DNA from: an uncultured Opitutia bacterium
GTDB taxonomy: Bacteria > Verrucomicrobiota > Verrucomicrobiia > Opitutales > Opitutaceae
Direction of reading: 5' to 3'
NCBI GenBank assembly: GCA_903859715.1
Contig: CAIONS010000065.1
Span: forward strand, 1-64,000
Length of the DNA: 64,000 bases
Part shown: one piece after another, positions 3,266-48,622 of the stretch
How positions within the stretch are numbered: the stretch's first letter is position 1
Layout of the letters: each line of letters begins with the position of its first letter
Notes under the pieces: model-generated
Database searches by the model: none
What the model saw: the letters and a program-made list of their open reading frames with translations, nothing else
Told to the model about the DNA's origin: nothing
Made by a program: the position numbers and the translations under genes

Positions 3266-3296
3266 GCGGGAATCTGCCGTCATCCGGCATTCCGTG

Positions 3297-3370
3297 GTAG
3301 GGCGCGACCGCTGGGCGCGCCGGCTCGGCCGGGGGAACGACAATCGGCGGTCCCAGCGGTCCCGCCCTAC
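3297..3370. repeat. Palindromic element, family A (GTAGGGCGGGACCGC)
   Basis: Imperfect inverted repeat: GTAGGGCGCGACCGCTGGG at 3297 pairs with CCCAGCGGTCCCGCCCTAC ending at 3370. It lies between the convergent glycosidase and malate dehydrogenase genes, where its hairpin could end transcription from both sides. The same family occurs at 35027-35094, there inside a gene. Confidence 0.8.
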
Positions 3371-3390
3371 CTCGAGCCGTTTCGCGCAAC

Positions 3391-5765: not shown

Positions 5766-5848
5766 GAATCTTAATCTGGAACTCAGGAACTTGGGAATCA
5801 GGCAGCACGATCCGGTTCCAGCGTTCCTGAGTTCCACATTCAAATCTG
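5766..5848. repeat. Palindromic element, family D (TGGAACTCAGGAAC)
   Basis: TGGAACTCAGGAAC at 5777-5790 pairs perfectly with GTTCCTGAGTTCCA at 5823-5836, with weaker complementarity on both sides. It lies upstream of the DAHP synthase. A longer, better-preserved copy is at 48517-48622. Confidence 0.8.
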
Positions 5849-12920: not shown

Positions 12921-13072
12921 AACCACGAATGGACACGAATCCACACGAATGGATCAGACATACGGCCAAAGCCATTTAACCACGGATTGCACGGATGTCA
13001 CGGATCAGGCCTCGAACCTTTCCGCTGGGAGAGGATGAAATCCGTGTTATCCGCGCAATCCGTGGTCAAAAT
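12921..13072. repeat. Word-repeat elements: ACGAATGG run and CACGGATTG inverted repeat
   Basis: At 12921-12955 a single-armed run ACCACGAATGG-ACACGAATCC-ACACGAATGG with 10-base period. At 12975-13072 a two-armed element: TTTAACCACGGATTGCACGG at the left pairs with ATCCGCGCAATCCGTGGTCA at the right, with a word period of nine. They separate yggS from the SirB1-like gene. Confidence 0.8.
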
Positions 13073-25551: not shown

Positions 25552-25797
25552 ATCACCACGAAAAAAACGAAGCACACGAAAACCGGACCACGAAGGCGGC
25601 CTCATGGATTTATCGCGGAAGCCGGAAGGACGGAAACGTGGAAGAATCTTCCATCCGTAGCAGCCGACGTCAGGAGGCTGGTGAAGCACGCGCCGAAGCT
25701 CAGCCTCCTCACGTCGGCTGCTACTACCTCTGCTGGATTGCTTCTGCGATCACTCCCCGGATCGGGTTTCGTGTCGTTCGTGTGTTTCGTGGTGACC
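25552..25797. repeat. Triply nested inverted elements (CACGAAGG / GCGGAAGC / GTAGCAGCC)
   Basis: Outer arms TATCACCACGAAAAAAACGA and TTCGTGTGTTTCGTGGTGA; within them TCGCGGAAGCCGGAAGG paired with TTGCTTCTGCGATCA; in the centre a 24-base-arm palindrome starting GTAGCAGCCGACGTCAGG (25657) and ending TCACGTCGGCTGCTAC (25724), with one mismatch between the arms. Three families are thus stacked concentrically in the 425-base gap between padR and the 2-oxoacid dehydrogenase gene. Confidence 0.85.
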
Positions 25798-33128: not shown

Positions 33129-34424
33129 TCACAGCGCCAGATTGTTGGCGCGCGTGTGGAGGGTCTGGACGACCGAGATGTTGCGCATCGCGAAGGCGGC
33201 TTCGCAGTAGCCGAGATAGTAACTCCACTTGCGGATGAAACGGTCGTCGAAGCCGAGGGCGCGGACCTCGTCGAGCCGGGAGCGGAAGTTGTCATGCCAG
33301 GCCCGCAGGGTGGTCACGTAGTCGTGGCCGTAATCCTCGGCGCCGTGGAGCACGAAGCCGCCGGCGCGCGCGAGCTGGTCGTTGACGCGGTTGAGCGAGA
33401 GCAGGAGCGAGCCGGGGAAGACATGCTTCTGGATGAAATCGACGCCCTTCCGGAACTGGTCGTAGCGCGAGTCCGGGCACGTGATGAACTGCAGCGCAAG
33501 CAAGCCGTCGGGTTTCAGGACGCGGCCGAGGGTGGCACAGAATTCGGGCAAGTAACGATGACCGATGGCCTCCATCATCTCGATCGAGACGATTTTATCG
33601 TACTGGCCGGTGAGGTCGCGGTAGTCGCGGAGCTGCACGTCGACGCGGTCCGCGAGACCGGCGATGGCCACGCGCTGGCGGGCGAGGTCGAACTGCTGCT
33701 GGGAAATCGTGACCGTGGTGACGCGGCAGTCATACGTCCGGGCCGCATGGATCGACCATCCGCCCCAGCCGCTGCCGATCTCGAGGACGTGGTCGCTGGG
33801 CGCAAGCCGGAGCTTGCGGCAGAGCGCGTCGTTTTTCGCGCGCTGGGCTTCGGCGAGGGTGAGGCCCGGGGTTTGCCAGTGAGCGCCCGAGTACATCATC
33901 GACGGATCGAGGAAGAGGGCGAAGAAATCGTTGGAGAGGTCGTAGTGCTCGCGGATGTTGCGGCGGGCAGTGGTCCGGGAATTGGGCCGCAGCAGGTGGC
34001 CGACGCGGTTGGCGAAGCGGAGCAGGTTAAGCGCGAGGGACCGGGCCTGCTGCGAGCCAGAGAGCGTGGGCGCATGCTCGAGGTTGAGAATGAACCAGGC
34101 GACGACGGCCGCGATGTCGGGGGTTTCCCAATCGCCGTCGATGAATGCCTCGGCGAAACCGATGTCACCCGACCAGAAGCACTTTTTGAAAAAAGCCGGG
34201 CGGAGCACGCGGATGGAGGCGCGGGCCGGCAGGCCGAGCGGAAGGGACTCCTCCGCGGCGCGGGAACCGAACTCATGGACGAGGCCGCCGGGCAGCTCGA
34301 TGCGCAGATGGCCGCGCGGCATGGCGGCAAAAGCGCCCAGCACGGAGCGCTGTTCGAACGTGCCGCCGGGTGCGCGGGCGTAGTCGGCGACGATGGCGGG
34401 GGAGGGCGTGGAATTGGAGCTCAT
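33129..34424 (-). CDS. cfa: Cyclopropane-fatty-acyl-phospholipid synthase
   Basis: A 431-residue full-length cyclopropane synthase that adds a SAM methylene to cis double bonds of membrane phospholipids. The N-terminal lipid-binding domain includes SGDIGFAEAFIDGDWETPD; the catalytic half has REHYDLSNDFFALFLDPSMM, the SAM motif VLEIGSGWGGWSIHAAR, IVSIEMMEAIGHRY, and the C-terminal WHDNFRSRLDEVRALGFDDR. The frame is open further upstream to 34598, but the ATG at 34424 overlaps the DUF1365 stop (ATGA). The desaturase in the same run could provide the unsaturated acyl chains. Confidence 0.93.
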   Translation of the reverse strand: MSSNSTPSPAIVADYARAPGGTFEQRSVLGAFAAMPRGHLRIELPGGLVHEFGSRAAEESLPLGLPARASIRVLRPAFFKKCFWSGDIGFAEAFIDGDWETPDIAAVVAWFILNLEHAPTLSGSQQARSLALNLLRFANRVGHLLRPNSRTTARRNIREHYDLSNDFFALFLDPSMMYSGAHWQTPGLTLAEAQRAKNDALCRKLRLAPSDHVLEIGSGWGGWSIHAARTYDCRVTTVTISQQQFDLARQRVAIAGLADRVDVQLRDYRDLTGQYDKIVSIEMMEAIGHRYLPEFCATLGRVLKPDGLLALQFITCPDSRYDQFRKGVDFIQKHVFPGSLLLSLNRVNDQLARAGGFVLHGAEDYGHDYVTTLRAWHDNFRSRLDEVRALGFDDRFIRKWSYYLGYCEAAFAMRNISVVQTLHTRANNLAL

Positions 34425-35305
34425 GCGACGTCGGGAGTGTGGGCGATGGAAGGGTGCGGGCGGTAGAGCGCCCGCTGGTCGGCGGGGCGCGCGGCTTTGG
34501 CAAACCACGGCACGCGTTTCAGCCAGAGGAGGAAGGCGTGCCAGTAGATCAGGGAGATGATCTTGAGGGTGATGAGGGGGTATTTCAGCGCGTACCATGC
34601 CAGCCGCGGGCCGGTGAGCTCGCGGCGCGGGCCGGTGAGCGTGCTGGTGAGGGTGCGATCGGCGCCGATGAAGTCGTCGATCTGGATGGAAAGATTCTCC
34701 CCGGGAGCACGCAGCTTGAAGTCGAAGGCGACATCCACGTCGGCAAACGGGGAGACATAAAAATGCTTCGGCGTGCGCACCGCGAAGGCACGGGCGGCGT
34801 CGCGCGTCGCCGGCCCGAGGAAATAGGGCTTCATCTCCTTGAACGTATTGGTGACCTCGGCCAGCGCGGCGACGGGCGTGCCCGTGCTGTCGTAGCAGAA
34901 ATAAAACGAGACGGGATTGAACAGATAGCCGAGCACGCGCGGCAGCGTGACGAGCAGCACGCGGCCGCCGGTCAGGTCCACGCCGCGTTCGGCGAGGAAC
35001 GCGATGACGCGGGATTTGAGATTGAGGTAGGGCGGGACCGCTGGGCCCGCCGTCCAGCTGGTTGTTCCCGGCGGGCCCAGCGGTCCCGCCCTACCATTGA
35101 AAACGGCTTCGCCGGTGGGCAGGAAATCGCGCTCACGAAACGAATAGAGATTGGGGCGGTTGACAGAAAACAGCGCGAGCCGGCCGGAGAGCGCACCGAG
35201 TTCATCCAGATCAATCGCAAACATGAAGATCCGGTAGAGAAAACGGTGCTGTCGCGGCGAGAACCGCGCGTGCATGACATGGCACTCGTAAAGGCAGGAA
35301 TTCAT
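34421..35305 (-). CDS. DUF1365 protein with repeat-encoded insertion
   Basis: A 294-residue DUF1365 family protein. Family landmarks are LYECHVMHARFSPRQHRFLY, LGYLFNPVSFYFCYD, AEVTNTFKEM and KHFYVSPFADVDVAFDFKL. Bacterial DUF1365 proteins occur with CFA synthases and FAD oxidoreductases in clusters for unusual fatty acids; the reaction is not known. Residues 70-94, rich in Gly, Pro and Ala, are encoded by a 68-base perfect palindrome of a family that is otherwise intergenic (35027-35094); the protein resumes its normal sequence after it. The frame stays open across the insertion, so a longer but potentially functional protein is made. Confidence 0.9.
   Translation of the reverse strand: MNSCLYECHVMHARFSPRQHRFLYRIFMFAIDLDELGALSGRLALFSVNRPNLYSFRERDFLPTGEAVFNGRAGPLGPPGTTSWTAGPAVPPYLNLKSRVIAFLAERGVDLTGGRVLLVTLPRVLGYLFNPVSFYFCYDSTGTPVAALAEVTNTFKEMKPYFLGPATRDAARAFAVRTPKHFYVSPFADVDVAFDFKLRAPGENLSIQIDDFIGADRTLTSTLTGPRRELTGPRLAWYALKYPLITLKIISLIYWHAFLLWLKRVPWFAKAARPADQRALYRPHPSIAHTPDVA
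35027..35094. repeat. Palindromic element, family A, inside DUF1365
   Basis: Two perfect 26-base arms, starting GTAGGGCGGGACCGCTGGG and ending CCCAGCGGTCCCGCCCTAC, with a 16-base loop. Identical in design to 3297-3370 but better preserved, and wholly within the coding frame of the DUF1365 gene, where it codes for residues 70-94. Confidence 0.92.
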
Positions 35306-35392: not shown

Positions 35393-35489
35393 TTTTAACC
35401 ACGGATTTCACGGATTCGATCCGGATAAATCCCATGCCGGGGAAGATCCGGTATTCCCGTCCGTGGCATCCGTGAAATCCGTGGTTAAA
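35393..35489. repeat. Inverted word-repeat, CACGGATTT family
   Basis: TTTTAACCACGGATTTCACG at the left and CGTGAAATCCGTGGTTAAAT at the right, nearly perfect over 24 bases, with a loop containing GATCCGG/CCGGAT words. It lies between the FAD oxidoreductase and DUF1365 genes on the same strand. Confidence 0.85.
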
Positions 35490-35498
35490 TTGCCTGAT

Positions 35499-36785
35499 TC
35501 AAGCCGTCCACGGATCGCGGCCGAGGAGCTGGGTGCTGAGGTTGTAAGCGCTCAGCAGACCGTCCTCGTGAAAGCCGTAGCGCTGCCAGGCGCCGGCGAA
35601 GAAGGTCTGGGTGGTGCGCTGGGCGGCCAGGTTGAGACCCGGCAGTTCGTCCTGGGCACGCACGGCCCCGAGGCTGAACAGCGGATGCTCATAGTGGATG
35701 CGACGGAGCACCTTTTCCGGATCGACGGCTTCGGGGCGGTTGATGCTGACGAAATAGTTCTCGCGGTTCGAAACGCCCTGCAGCGAATTCATCCAGTAGT
35801 GCGTAGCCGTCGAGATGCGGCCGTCGGGTCCGCGGTTGATCTCATAATTCCAGCTCGACCACGCCAGGGGCGTGCGCGGCATCACCCGGGTGTCGGTATG
35901 CAGGGTAGCGACGTTGGCCTGGTATTTGAATTCACCGAGCAGCCGGCCCTCGTCGGCGGTGGGGCTGTCGATCAGCCGCAGGGCCTGGTCGCCGTGGCAG
36001 GCGAGGATGACATGATCGAAGTGCTGGGCCGTGCCGGTGGAGGTCATCACGGTCACGCCGCGCGGCGAGCGGACGACATGGGTCGCGGCCTGGCCGAGCC
36101 GGATGCGATCGCGCCATGGGGCGGAAATTTTTCCGACATAGGTTTTGGCGCCACCGTCCACCGTCCACCACTGATGCTGGGTGTTGAGCCCGAGGAAGCC
36201 GTGGTTGTGGAAGAAACGCAGCAGGGAGGTCGCGGGGAATTCCAGCATCCGCTCCGGCGGCGTGCTCCAGACGGCGGAGCTCATGGGCACGAGATAAAGG
36301 TGGAAGAAATCCTTGCCGTAGCCGCGCCGTTTCACGTAGTCGCCGAGCGTTTCATCCCGGGCGGCGGGATCGGCGAGGGCGGCGACCGCCTCGGAGTTGA
36401 AGCGGTTGATCGCGGCTAGCATCCGGTAAAACCGCGGCCGGAAAAGATTGCGGCGTTGCGCGAAGAGGTGGTTGAGCGAGGAGCCGGCGAACTCCAGGCC
36501 GCTGTCGGCGTGGCGCACGCTGAACGACATCAGGGTCGGCTTGGTCGGAACCGCCAGGTCGCGGAACAGCCGGGTGAGCAGCGGATAGGTGGCGTGGTTG
36601 AACACCATGAACGCGGTGTCGATCGGCACGGCGCGGCCGGTGCCGGGCTCGGGGGTCGTGACGGTGTGCGTATGACCGCCTGCGTAGTCATTTTGCTCGA
36701 ACAGCGTGAGGTCGAAATGCCGGTGGAGGAAATGGGCGCAGCCGAGGCCGGCGATGCCGGTGCCGATGATCGCAAGTTTGGCCAT
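35499..36785 (-). CDS. FAD-dependent amine-oxidase-like oxidoreductase
   Basis: A 428-residue flavoprotein of the NAD(P)/FAD amine-oxidase fold. The dinucleotide motif is LAIIGTGIAGLGCAHFL at residues 4-20, followed by FEQNDYAGGHTHTV; a GAK-type segment WTVDGGAKTYV and the C-terminal FAD-binding FFAGAWQRYGFHEDGLLSA are present. Homologues sit beside DUF1365 and CFA synthase genes in many bacteria and are predicted to oxidise or desaturate modified acyl chains. It is 39 bases downstream of the desaturase gene. Confidence 0.9.
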   Translation of the reverse strand: MAKLAIIGTGIAGLGCAHFLHRHFDLTLFEQNDYAGGHTHTVTTPEPGTGRAVPIDTAFMVFNHATYPLLTRLFRDLAVPTKPTLMSFSVRHADSGLEFAGSSLNHLFAQRRNLFRPRFYRMLAAINRFNSEAVAALADPAARDETLGDYVKRRGYGKDFFHLYLVPMSSAVWSTPPERMLEFPATSLLRFFHNHGFLGLNTQHQWWTVDGGAKTYVGKISAPWRDRIRLGQAATHVVRSPRGVTVMTSTGTAQHFDHVILACHGDQALRLIDSPTADEGRLLGEFKYQANVATLHTDTRVMPRTPLAWSSWNYEINRGPDGRISTATHYWMNSLQGVSNRENYFVSINRPEAVDPEKVLRRIHYEHPLFSLGAVRAQDELPGLNLAAQRTTQTFFAGAWQRYGFHEDGLLSAYNLSTQLLGRDPWTA

Positions 36786-36824: not shown

Positions 36825-38003
36825 TCAACCGTGGGGCGGGGACGGATCGGCCGGCCGGGCCAGTTCGCCGACCTGCTGGCGGATGGCCGGGCCGGTGGCG
36901 CGGCGGGGCGCGATGACATGGGCGGTGTTGACGGTGGCCATGGCCAGGGCGGCGGCGGCGGGCACGACCTTCTTGAAAGAGGAAAATTCGGGATGAAGGA
37001 GCGCGGCGCGCTCGGCGGCGGCGATCGAGCCCGCGAGGTCGGCGCGGGCGGCCTCCTCCATGATGGAAGCCGGCACGGGTTTCAGGTCGCGGATGAAGCC
37101 GGTGGCGGCGAGCAGCTTGAGCCCGTAATAGGTCGGGTCGATTTCCCACCAGTAGAAACCCTGGCGCGTGGCGCTCATGTAGCGGTGGTGGTTGTTGTGC
37201 CAGCCCTCGCCGAGGGTGATGAAGGTGAGGATCCAGCTGTTGCGCGAGTCATCGGCGGTTTGAAATCGGCGACGGCCCATCAGGTGCGCGAGGGAGTTGA
37301 TGCAGGACGTGCCGTGGAACAGGGCGGTGGTGCTGACAAAGAAGCCCCATCCCAGCATCTGCCAGCGCGTGGTGTGGAGGCCGGGGGCATAAAGTTCGAG
37401 GAGCCAGCCGAGGCCCCAGAGGCCGGTGGCAAAGAGGATGGGGACGACGGTGTCGAAGCGGTTCAGCCAGACGAGCTCGGGATAGGCCGCGAGATCGCGG
37501 ATCTTCGAGTAGTCGGTCGGGAAATTGCGCCGGCTCGTGATCCAGCCGATGTGCGACCACCAGAAACCATGCACGTGCGGGGAGTGGGCGTCCTCCGGGT
37601 CGTCGGAATGCTGATGATGATGGCGGTGGTGATAAGCCCACCACAGCGCGCCGCGCTGCACGGCGGTTGCGCCCCAGAGCGCGAGCAGAAACTGGCCGAC
37701 GCGGGACGTGCGGTAGGTCTTATGGGAAAAATAGCGGTGATAGATGCCGGTGACGGCGAACATCCGGAGAAAATAAAGCGCCACCGCGGCCCCGACGGCG
37801 AACGGGCTCCAGCCTGCCCACAGGACCATGAGGCAGCCGGCATGCAGGATGATGAATGGAATGCAGCGAACCCAGTCGACCCGGTCGGGTTCAGCGCGCA
37901 TTTTTTCCGCGCCACCCGGCGCATGGTCGGAGTCAAACCATTGCACGAAAGCCGCGAGGATCCGGTGAAGCGGTGAGAGGCAGGAAGGGAGGGAGACCGT
38001 CAT
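36825..38003 (-). CDS. Delta-9-type acyl desaturase
   Basis: A 392-residue membrane fatty-acyl desaturase of the stearoyl-CoA/acyl-CoA delta-9 type. All three histidine boxes that bind the di-iron centre are present: HRYFSH (about 89-94), HHRHHHQH (125-132) and HNNHH (269-273). Four transmembrane segments surround them. It would introduce a cis double bond into acyl chains, the substrate needed by the two CFA-family enzymes downstream. An upstream extension of the frame translates a repeat, so I start at the ATG at 38003 (MTVSLPSCLSPLHRIL). First gene of the lipid run. Confidence 0.92.
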   Translation of the reverse strand: MTVSLPSCLSPLHRILAAFVQWFDSDHAPGGAEKMRAEPDRVDWVRCIPFIILHAGCLMVLWAGWSPFAVGAAVALYFLRMFAVTGIYHRYFSHKTYRTSRVGQFLLALWGATAVQRGALWWAYHHRHHHQHSDDPEDAHSPHVHGFWWSHIGWITSRRNFPTDYSKIRDLAAYPELVWLNRFDTVVPILFATGLWGLGWLLELYAPGLHTTRWQMLGWGFFVSTTALFHGTSCINSLAHLMGRRRFQTADDSRNSWILTFITLGEGWHNNHHRYMSATRQGFYWWEIDPTYYGLKLLAATGFIRDLKPVPASIMEEAARADLAGSIAAAERAALLHPEFSSFKKVVPAAAALAMATVNTAHVIAPRRATGPAIRQQVGELARPADPSPPHG

Positions 38004-38066
38004 GGAGCTGGGCGGGATGCCGTGGAGAGTGCCGCTGTTACGGGCAGGAACGGTAGGCCGGATGCG

Positions 38067-38219
38067 GGCAATTTCGGATTTGGGATACCGGAAACCGGAA
38101 AGCCGGGTTAGAACGATGGCGTGGTCCACGAGTGAACGAGGATGAAAGCCGCTTGAACGGTTCTGCCTTGGTTGGTGCCAGGCTAGGCCAATCCAGTATT
38201 CGAGATCCGAAATTTAGCC
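38067..38219. repeat. Inverted element, AATTTCGGATTT family, carrying a stop codon
   Basis: GGCAATTTCGGATTTGGGAT (38067) pairs with TCGAGATCCGAAATTTAGCC (ending 38219), imperfectly. The TAA stop of the MFS gene (38214-38216, minus strand) lies in the right arm. It separates the MFS gene from the desaturase. Confidence 0.65.
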
Positions 38220-39517: not shown

Positions 39518-39589
39518 GTGGCAGCCGACGTAAGGAGGCTGGTTCGCTTGGCAGTGCGCCCTAACCAGCCTCCTCACGTCGGCTGCTAC
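39518..39589. repeat. Palindromic element, family B (GTAGCAGCCGACG)
   Basis: GTGGCAGCCGACGTAAGGAG at 39518 pairs with CTCCTCACGTCGGCTGCTAC ending 39589; the arms differ at two positions. The same family forms the core of the nested element at 25657 and the half-copy at 30026. Confidence 0.85.
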
Positions 39590-48516: not shown

Positions 48517-48622
48517 TTTTATGTGGAACTCAGGAACTCTGGAATCGATCCGCTGAATTCTGGCCTTGGATCAATTCATCTGGTTTGGGGATTGGCCCAG
48601 AGTTCCTGAGTTCCACATAAAA
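48517..48622. repeat. Palindromic element, family D (TTTTATGTGGAACTC)
   Basis: Two perfect 26-base arms (48517-48542 and 48597-48622; TTTTATGTGGAACTCAGGAA at the left) with a 54-base loop that itself contains GATCC/GGATC. Between two convergent genes, where it may serve as a terminator. A worn copy is at 5766-5848. Confidence 0.9.

Follow-up and report, generated by a model that had tools for sequence, protein, structure and literature searches.

Palindrome within the DUF1365 gene and its dispersed family

The window (the whole 64,000-nucleotide stretch of DNA that was analysed) contains a DUF1365 gene. Its same-strand neighbours match a methyltransferase of the cyclopropane-synthase type (33129-34598), an FAD amine oxidase (35499-36785) and a desaturase of fatty acids (36825-38129). 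Inside the gene is a 70-bp palindrome whose perfect arms, 27 bp each, are separated by a spacer of 16 nt (Table 1). An earlier reading of this DNA from the sequence only had described a perfect palindrome of 68 bp with 26-base arms; the perfect palindrome was real, but the terminal G/C pair had been missed. The same reading had placed the element wholly within the DUF1365 frame, in frame, in a gene that stays open and conserved around it. This was borne out by the PF07103 match, the uninterrupted frame and the homology that resumes on either side. The encoded stretch is indeed Gly/Pro/Ala-rich, although a codon count gives residues 71-93/94 rather than the 70-94 originally assigned.

Table 1. 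Coordinates of the DUF1365 gene, the parts of its palindrome and the intergenic copy in the window.
Feature	Position	Strand	Description
DUF1365 gene, 294 aa	34421..35305	-	Pfam PF07103, E = 6e-73, residues 5-271; insert in linker modelled as disordered
REPIN-like head-to-head GTAG REP dimer within the DUF1365 gene	35026..35095	-	encodes residues 71-94 (GRAGPLGPPGTTSWTAGPAVPPYL)
First REP arm, coding strand	35069..35095	-	(G)GTAG head, GGCGGG/CCCGCC hairpin; read GRAGPLGPP; stem covariation
16-nt spacer separating the arms	35053..35068	-	identical to G124 at 12/16; spacers of other genome copies differ
Second REP arm, inverted	35026..35052	+	coding-strand reading AGPAVPPY
Intergenic REPIN-like copy, heterodimer (GC-type and GG-type arms)	3296..3371	+	same family as DUF1365 element

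Each arm followed the pattern (G)GTAGGGCG-N-GACCGCTGGG-NN-CGCC, in which an outer GTAG tag precedes a hairpin with the stem GGCGNG/CNCGCC. Both arms carry this unpaired tag at their outer end, as in the GTAG REP superfamily. Among 132 distinct arms from the fetched loci, the variable stem pair was G-C in 71, C-G in 49 and T-G in 5 (125/132), in line with the imperfect palindromic body and paired stem of that superfamily. By its sequence, the 70-bp palindrome is two such arms set head to head, and so is built like a dimer of GTAG REPs, or REPIN.

Four matches to the arm pattern were present in the window against 0.01 expected, confirming the earlier proposal that a copy of the same family lies between genes at 3297-3370. 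Membership of a dispersed palindrome family was likewise upheld, as the genome that includes the window (G000) contained 31 arms and none matching a reversed-pattern control. The element or a close sister type occurs at approximately 25 places in G000, where single arms also occur alone. Surveying Opitutaceae, we detected the arm in 50 of 150 genomes and 24 of 49 genera, with zero control matches; the highest count was 98 arms, in G074. The REPs form +/- pairs with a short spacer, mostly 60-81 bp overall, as in the inverted pairs of REPINs. The outermost G/C was invariant in 78/78 flanks of 39 dimers.

Other repeats were also apparent. A sister repeat without the leading G, GTAGGGCGGGATCGCTGACCCCGCC, is dispersed in G000 too (L151, L152, L154-L157). 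A second inverted-repeat family in the window has a GTAG or GTGG head (GTAGCAGCCGACGTnAGGAGGCTG; 25657-25724 and 39518-39589) and arms that are 93-96% complementary. Inverted repeats of the TTTAACCACGGATTTCACGGAT family are located at 12975-13070 and 35394-35489, the latter in the interval separating DUF1365 from the FAD oxidoreductase gene, and those of the GGAACTCAGGAACT family at 5768-5845 and 48517-48622, the latter with perfect 26-nt arms.

Age and fate of the insert

Relatives with organism titles were Opitutaceae and Opitutae MAGs. The DUF1365 orthologue of the sister species G124 (88% amino acid identity) has the same insert in a decayed form: its arms differ by 2 + 4 = 6 substitutions, and 12/16 spacer positions are identical. 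Because G124 has the same insert with a related spacer, the insertion predates the split between G000 and G124, which on this sequence comparison corresponds to a dS of ~0.36 in the rest of the gene. The earlier suggestion that perfect arms indicate a recent insertion is thus not supported. The G000 arms are still perfect and all six arm changes fall in G124 (P ~0.03 under equal lineage rates), a pattern that hints at repair, conversion or constraint rather than pure drift.

Between G000 and G124, the gene outside the insert showed a dS of 0.36, a dN of 0.053 and a dN/dS of ~0.15, and as judged from these substitutions it is under purifying selection. The insert region showed a dN of 0.18 and a dS of 0.15 in a small sample, values compatible with no constraint on the encoded peptide.

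The G015 orthologue carries a shrunken version of the insert. Throughout the orthologue alignment, the stretch between ...LPTxE-hN and LKxRV varied in both length and composition, and five members of the same genus (G151, G154, G059, G150 and G141) had unrelated, shorter linkers. Orthologues had been expected to lack exactly the inserted stretch; instead, they carry other linkers of ~10-14 residues. Since the linkers of these congeners are unrelated and shorter, no clean empty site can be recovered by removing the insert. It seems that the ancestral short linker was replaced or lost, and that the insertion was not clean.

The AlphaFold model of the DUF1365 protein (39 sequences) had a mean pLDDT of 81, and residues 66-91 scored below 50. 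This low-pLDDT linker lies between a strand (54-56) and a helix (96-106), and the model suggests that extra residues here should do no harm. A search for solved structures related by sequence to DUF1365 found none.

Loops and reading frames occupied by intragenic copies

G000 possesses other copies in frame within genes: the genes for MnmA and a TatD-family DNase contain REPINs, and that for a DUF255 protein contains one lone REP. Orthologues within the genus mostly lack these other inserts. In DUF1365 itself, the linkers of L072, L075 and L014, which belong to other genera, also hold REPINs of this family. On a tree of 85 DUF1365 orthologues constructed with the linker left out, well supported branches forced at least five changes in REPIN presence at this position, gains and losses being counted together. 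The linker also holds a TTTGTCAY...RTGACAAA-like palindrome (L008, L012, L015, L024, L123), and linker peptides such as NRKSQIANLKSR (L026, L020, L101, L139) resemble AT-rich repeat DNA. Inverted repeats with 9-bp arms occurred at 1.54 per kb in the DUF1365 linker vs 0.18 per kb elsewhere, in 10/85 linkers, an excess that is clear only with these shorter arms. Counts of 9-bp arms discriminate weakly in GC-rich genes, and 12-bp arms were used for MnmA.

Loop reuse is clearest in MnmA. The MnmA loop lies between GHYxR and xxKDQSY, and alignment with solved structures shows it as an insertion relative to these. Across 76 species of the family, the loop has 15-18 residues in 28 and is longer in the others, reaching 86. 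An inverted repeat with arms of at least 12 bp was present in 13/76 loops, comprising ~11 different sequences as judged by eye, including GGTAGGGCG..., GGTAGGGACGGGCGG..., GTGGGTCGGGCCTTACGCCCGAC..., GTAGGGGCGCTGTCTTGCAGCG..., GTCGTTTTCACTTATTAAGTG... and CAAAGGGGTCATGCTTCGTATAG... The loop had such repeats at a density of 1.88 per kb (13) and the remainder of the gene at 0.01 per kb (1), a difference of ~190-fold. The GTAGGGCG family occupies the MnmA loop in four genera (G000, G096, G039 and G010), and in TatD, the loop of G085 holds a different palindrome. On these sequence comparisons, the same loops in DUF1365, MnmA and TatD are occupied by unrelated palindromes in different species.

Two further features of MnmA loops were seen. 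The 78-aa loop of L192 (G085) contains at least two different palindromes in tandem, an extreme occupation, and the repeat GCGTTGCCCCCAACGCG, read as APNAL, recurs in several genera (L310, L198, L329, L336).

Our census of intragenic copies drew on five genomes and covered 60 loci, in which there were 67 REP groups; most spanning ORFs were scanned with Pfam. Thirteen of the 67 groups (~1/5) were inside Pfam-supported genes, a fraction that comes from genomes picked as repeat-rich and is not a family-wide estimate; one further group, in a GH115 ORF, was uncertain. The supported hosts were GcvP, MetH, an AcrB-type gene, B12-binding/MeaB, IspG, HrpA (three times), an antiporter subunit, GH31, DUF3516, MnmA and a nitrogenase component 1-type gene. 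In G096, one HrpA-type helicase gene (L281, L282) has three same-family REPINs in frame.

The entry arm was read in the frame nGT-AGG (GRAGPLGPP...) in 14 of 15-16 elements in Pfam-supported genes, G000's three included, and in the other frame (VGRDRWAR...) in 1-2. This bias had a P of 0.0005-0.002, or 0.002-0.006 when each gene was counted once. Gly/Pro/Ala are encoded in the favoured frame and Arg/Trp in the other open frame, and such a bias is what a sieve at the protein level would leave.

Origin of the insert and its relation to known elements

Taken as a whole, the insertion, its tolerance, its drift and the sieve are probably best explained by a non-autonomous REPIN-like element. A RAYT-like Y1 transposase would have acted in trans on single-stranded REP hairpins, an action published for REPs (PMC8266576, PMC3733652). 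A REPIN copy would thereby have entered the variable DUF1365 linker in the common ancestor of G000 and G124. It would have been kept because it lies in frame and free of stops, presumably being translated into a Gly/Pro/Ala-rich segment of a disordered loop, in a protein that would still fold and function. At the protein level the insert then drifted at a roughly neutral rate. Selection would act as a sieve through which only insertions in permissive loops and a harmless frame survive, which would explain why the same loops (the DUF1365 linker, the MnmA loop and the TatD loop) are repeatedly occupied in different species. Y1 transposase genes were present in G000 and in 9/9 REP-rich genomes searched. 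At the 42 Y1 loci read (128 kb, a subset of the Y1 genes), none adjoined a REP of the DUF1365-element family, so no transposase is tied to this family.

Local DNA features might instead direct mobile palindromes to the loop, with selection mattering less. That the same codons are hit repeatedly in DUF1365, MnmA and TatD is consistent with this, as are the outward flanks of REP dimers, which are pyrimidine-rich at positions 2-3 and T-poor at position 5. However, the flank preference is weak, and the many unrelated element types in the same loops are hard to fit to one enzyme's preference. The favouring of one frame also points to selection at the protein level, and we consider a targeting explanation unlikely.

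It is less probable still that the loop palindromes are kept for a benefit to the gene, for example as a useful linker peptide or as a strong mRNA hairpin within the coding region, slowing translation or shielding the transcript. Under this explanation the perfect G000 arms, against six changes in G124, would be due to selection; the coding-strand RNA of the insert folds at -69.9 kcal/mol, and the same loops are occupied again and again. Yet many species do without, the MnmA loop being bare (15-18 aa) in 28/76. The palindromes within one loop are also unrelated in sequence, amino acids in the insert change at a neutral rate, and decay has been permitted in both G124 and G015.

We regard as very improbable a classical MITE or IS fragment moved by a DDE transposase with target duplication. 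The perfect terminal inverted repeats would suit such an element, and the check for a border duplication proposed with the sequence-only reading did find ATTGA on both sides of the DUF1365 copy. However, this is not typical of the family: flanking 5-mers matched in just 1 of 39 dimers, the DUF1365 copy itself, with 0.19 expected. Target-site duplication was consequently rejected as a family trait, and ATTGA at these borders is probably due to chance. Moreover, every arm forms a hairpin of its own, in which changes are paired, and arms are found singly. Finally, a chance palindrome or assembly artefact, for which nothing speaks beyond the fragmented assembly, can be dismissed in view of the DNA folding (z = -10.8, 0/200 shuffles equally stable) and the many exact relatives with zero in controls, and is refuted by the decayed orthologous copy in the separate assembly of G124.

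The REPIN-like element of the DUF1365 gene is of an already published sort. Di Nocera et al. 2013 (PMC3733652) described intragenic GTAG REPs, commonest in Opitutus terrae, compared them to Rickettsia elements and suggested a location in flexible linkers. The sequence-only reading had overlooked both this description and the fact that each arm is a GTAG REP. Compared by description, the O. terrae repeats share with ours the GTAG-tagged hairpins, head-to-head dimers, a position inside ORFs, 20-30 encoded amino acids and the bacterial family. The host and gene are different, and the present analysis adds a date for the insertion, taken from orthologues, and a measured frame bias. PMC3733652 reports one case of different REPs at approximately the same site (recB of two Xanthomonas), whereas the loops described here hold many palindromes of unrelated sequence. 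This repeated use of the same loops, the frame bias and the dating were not found in PMC3733652, its supplementary tables aside, and our literature search on REPINs in Opitutaceae found none.

Pseudomonas REPINs (Bertels and Rainey 2011, PMC3116915) are similarly dispersed inverted REP doublets with a spacer, foldable as a single hairpin. However, they were defined in extragenic space, whereas ~1/5 of the elements surveyed here are in supported genes and no RAYT was linked to the present family. The likeness in principle to Rickettsia palindromic elements (RPE), pointed out in the sequence-only reading, was justified, since these too are in-frame palindromes within genes; they are translated as extra peptide, as is presumed for the DUF1365 insert, and the likeness is one of analogy only. 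It had already been drawn in PMC3733652, according to which RPE-4 and RPE-6 are CGTC-type REPs, while the DUF1365 element is of the GTAG type and in a different host. As intragenic GTAG REPs and the Rickettsia likeness were both published in 2013, the type of event is already known.

At the DUF1365 locus, the incorporation of a mobile hairpin into a protein-coding gene can be followed by comparison and dated. To some degree the outcome appears predictable, with the same loops and the same frame used by many element types. Intragenic REPs might be neutral passengers or serve as useful linkers, a choice that becomes testable in MnmA, the structure of which is solved. Certain loops of housekeeping proteins in Opitutaceae, chiefly the DUF1365 linker and the MnmA loop that follows GHYxR, may be standing in-frame landing sites for many unrelated mobile palindromes, which are gained, decay and are replaced there because few other coding positions let such DNA persist; we see this proposal as evenly balanced between true and false. 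If it is true, mobile palindromes would keep supplying this family with new protein loops.
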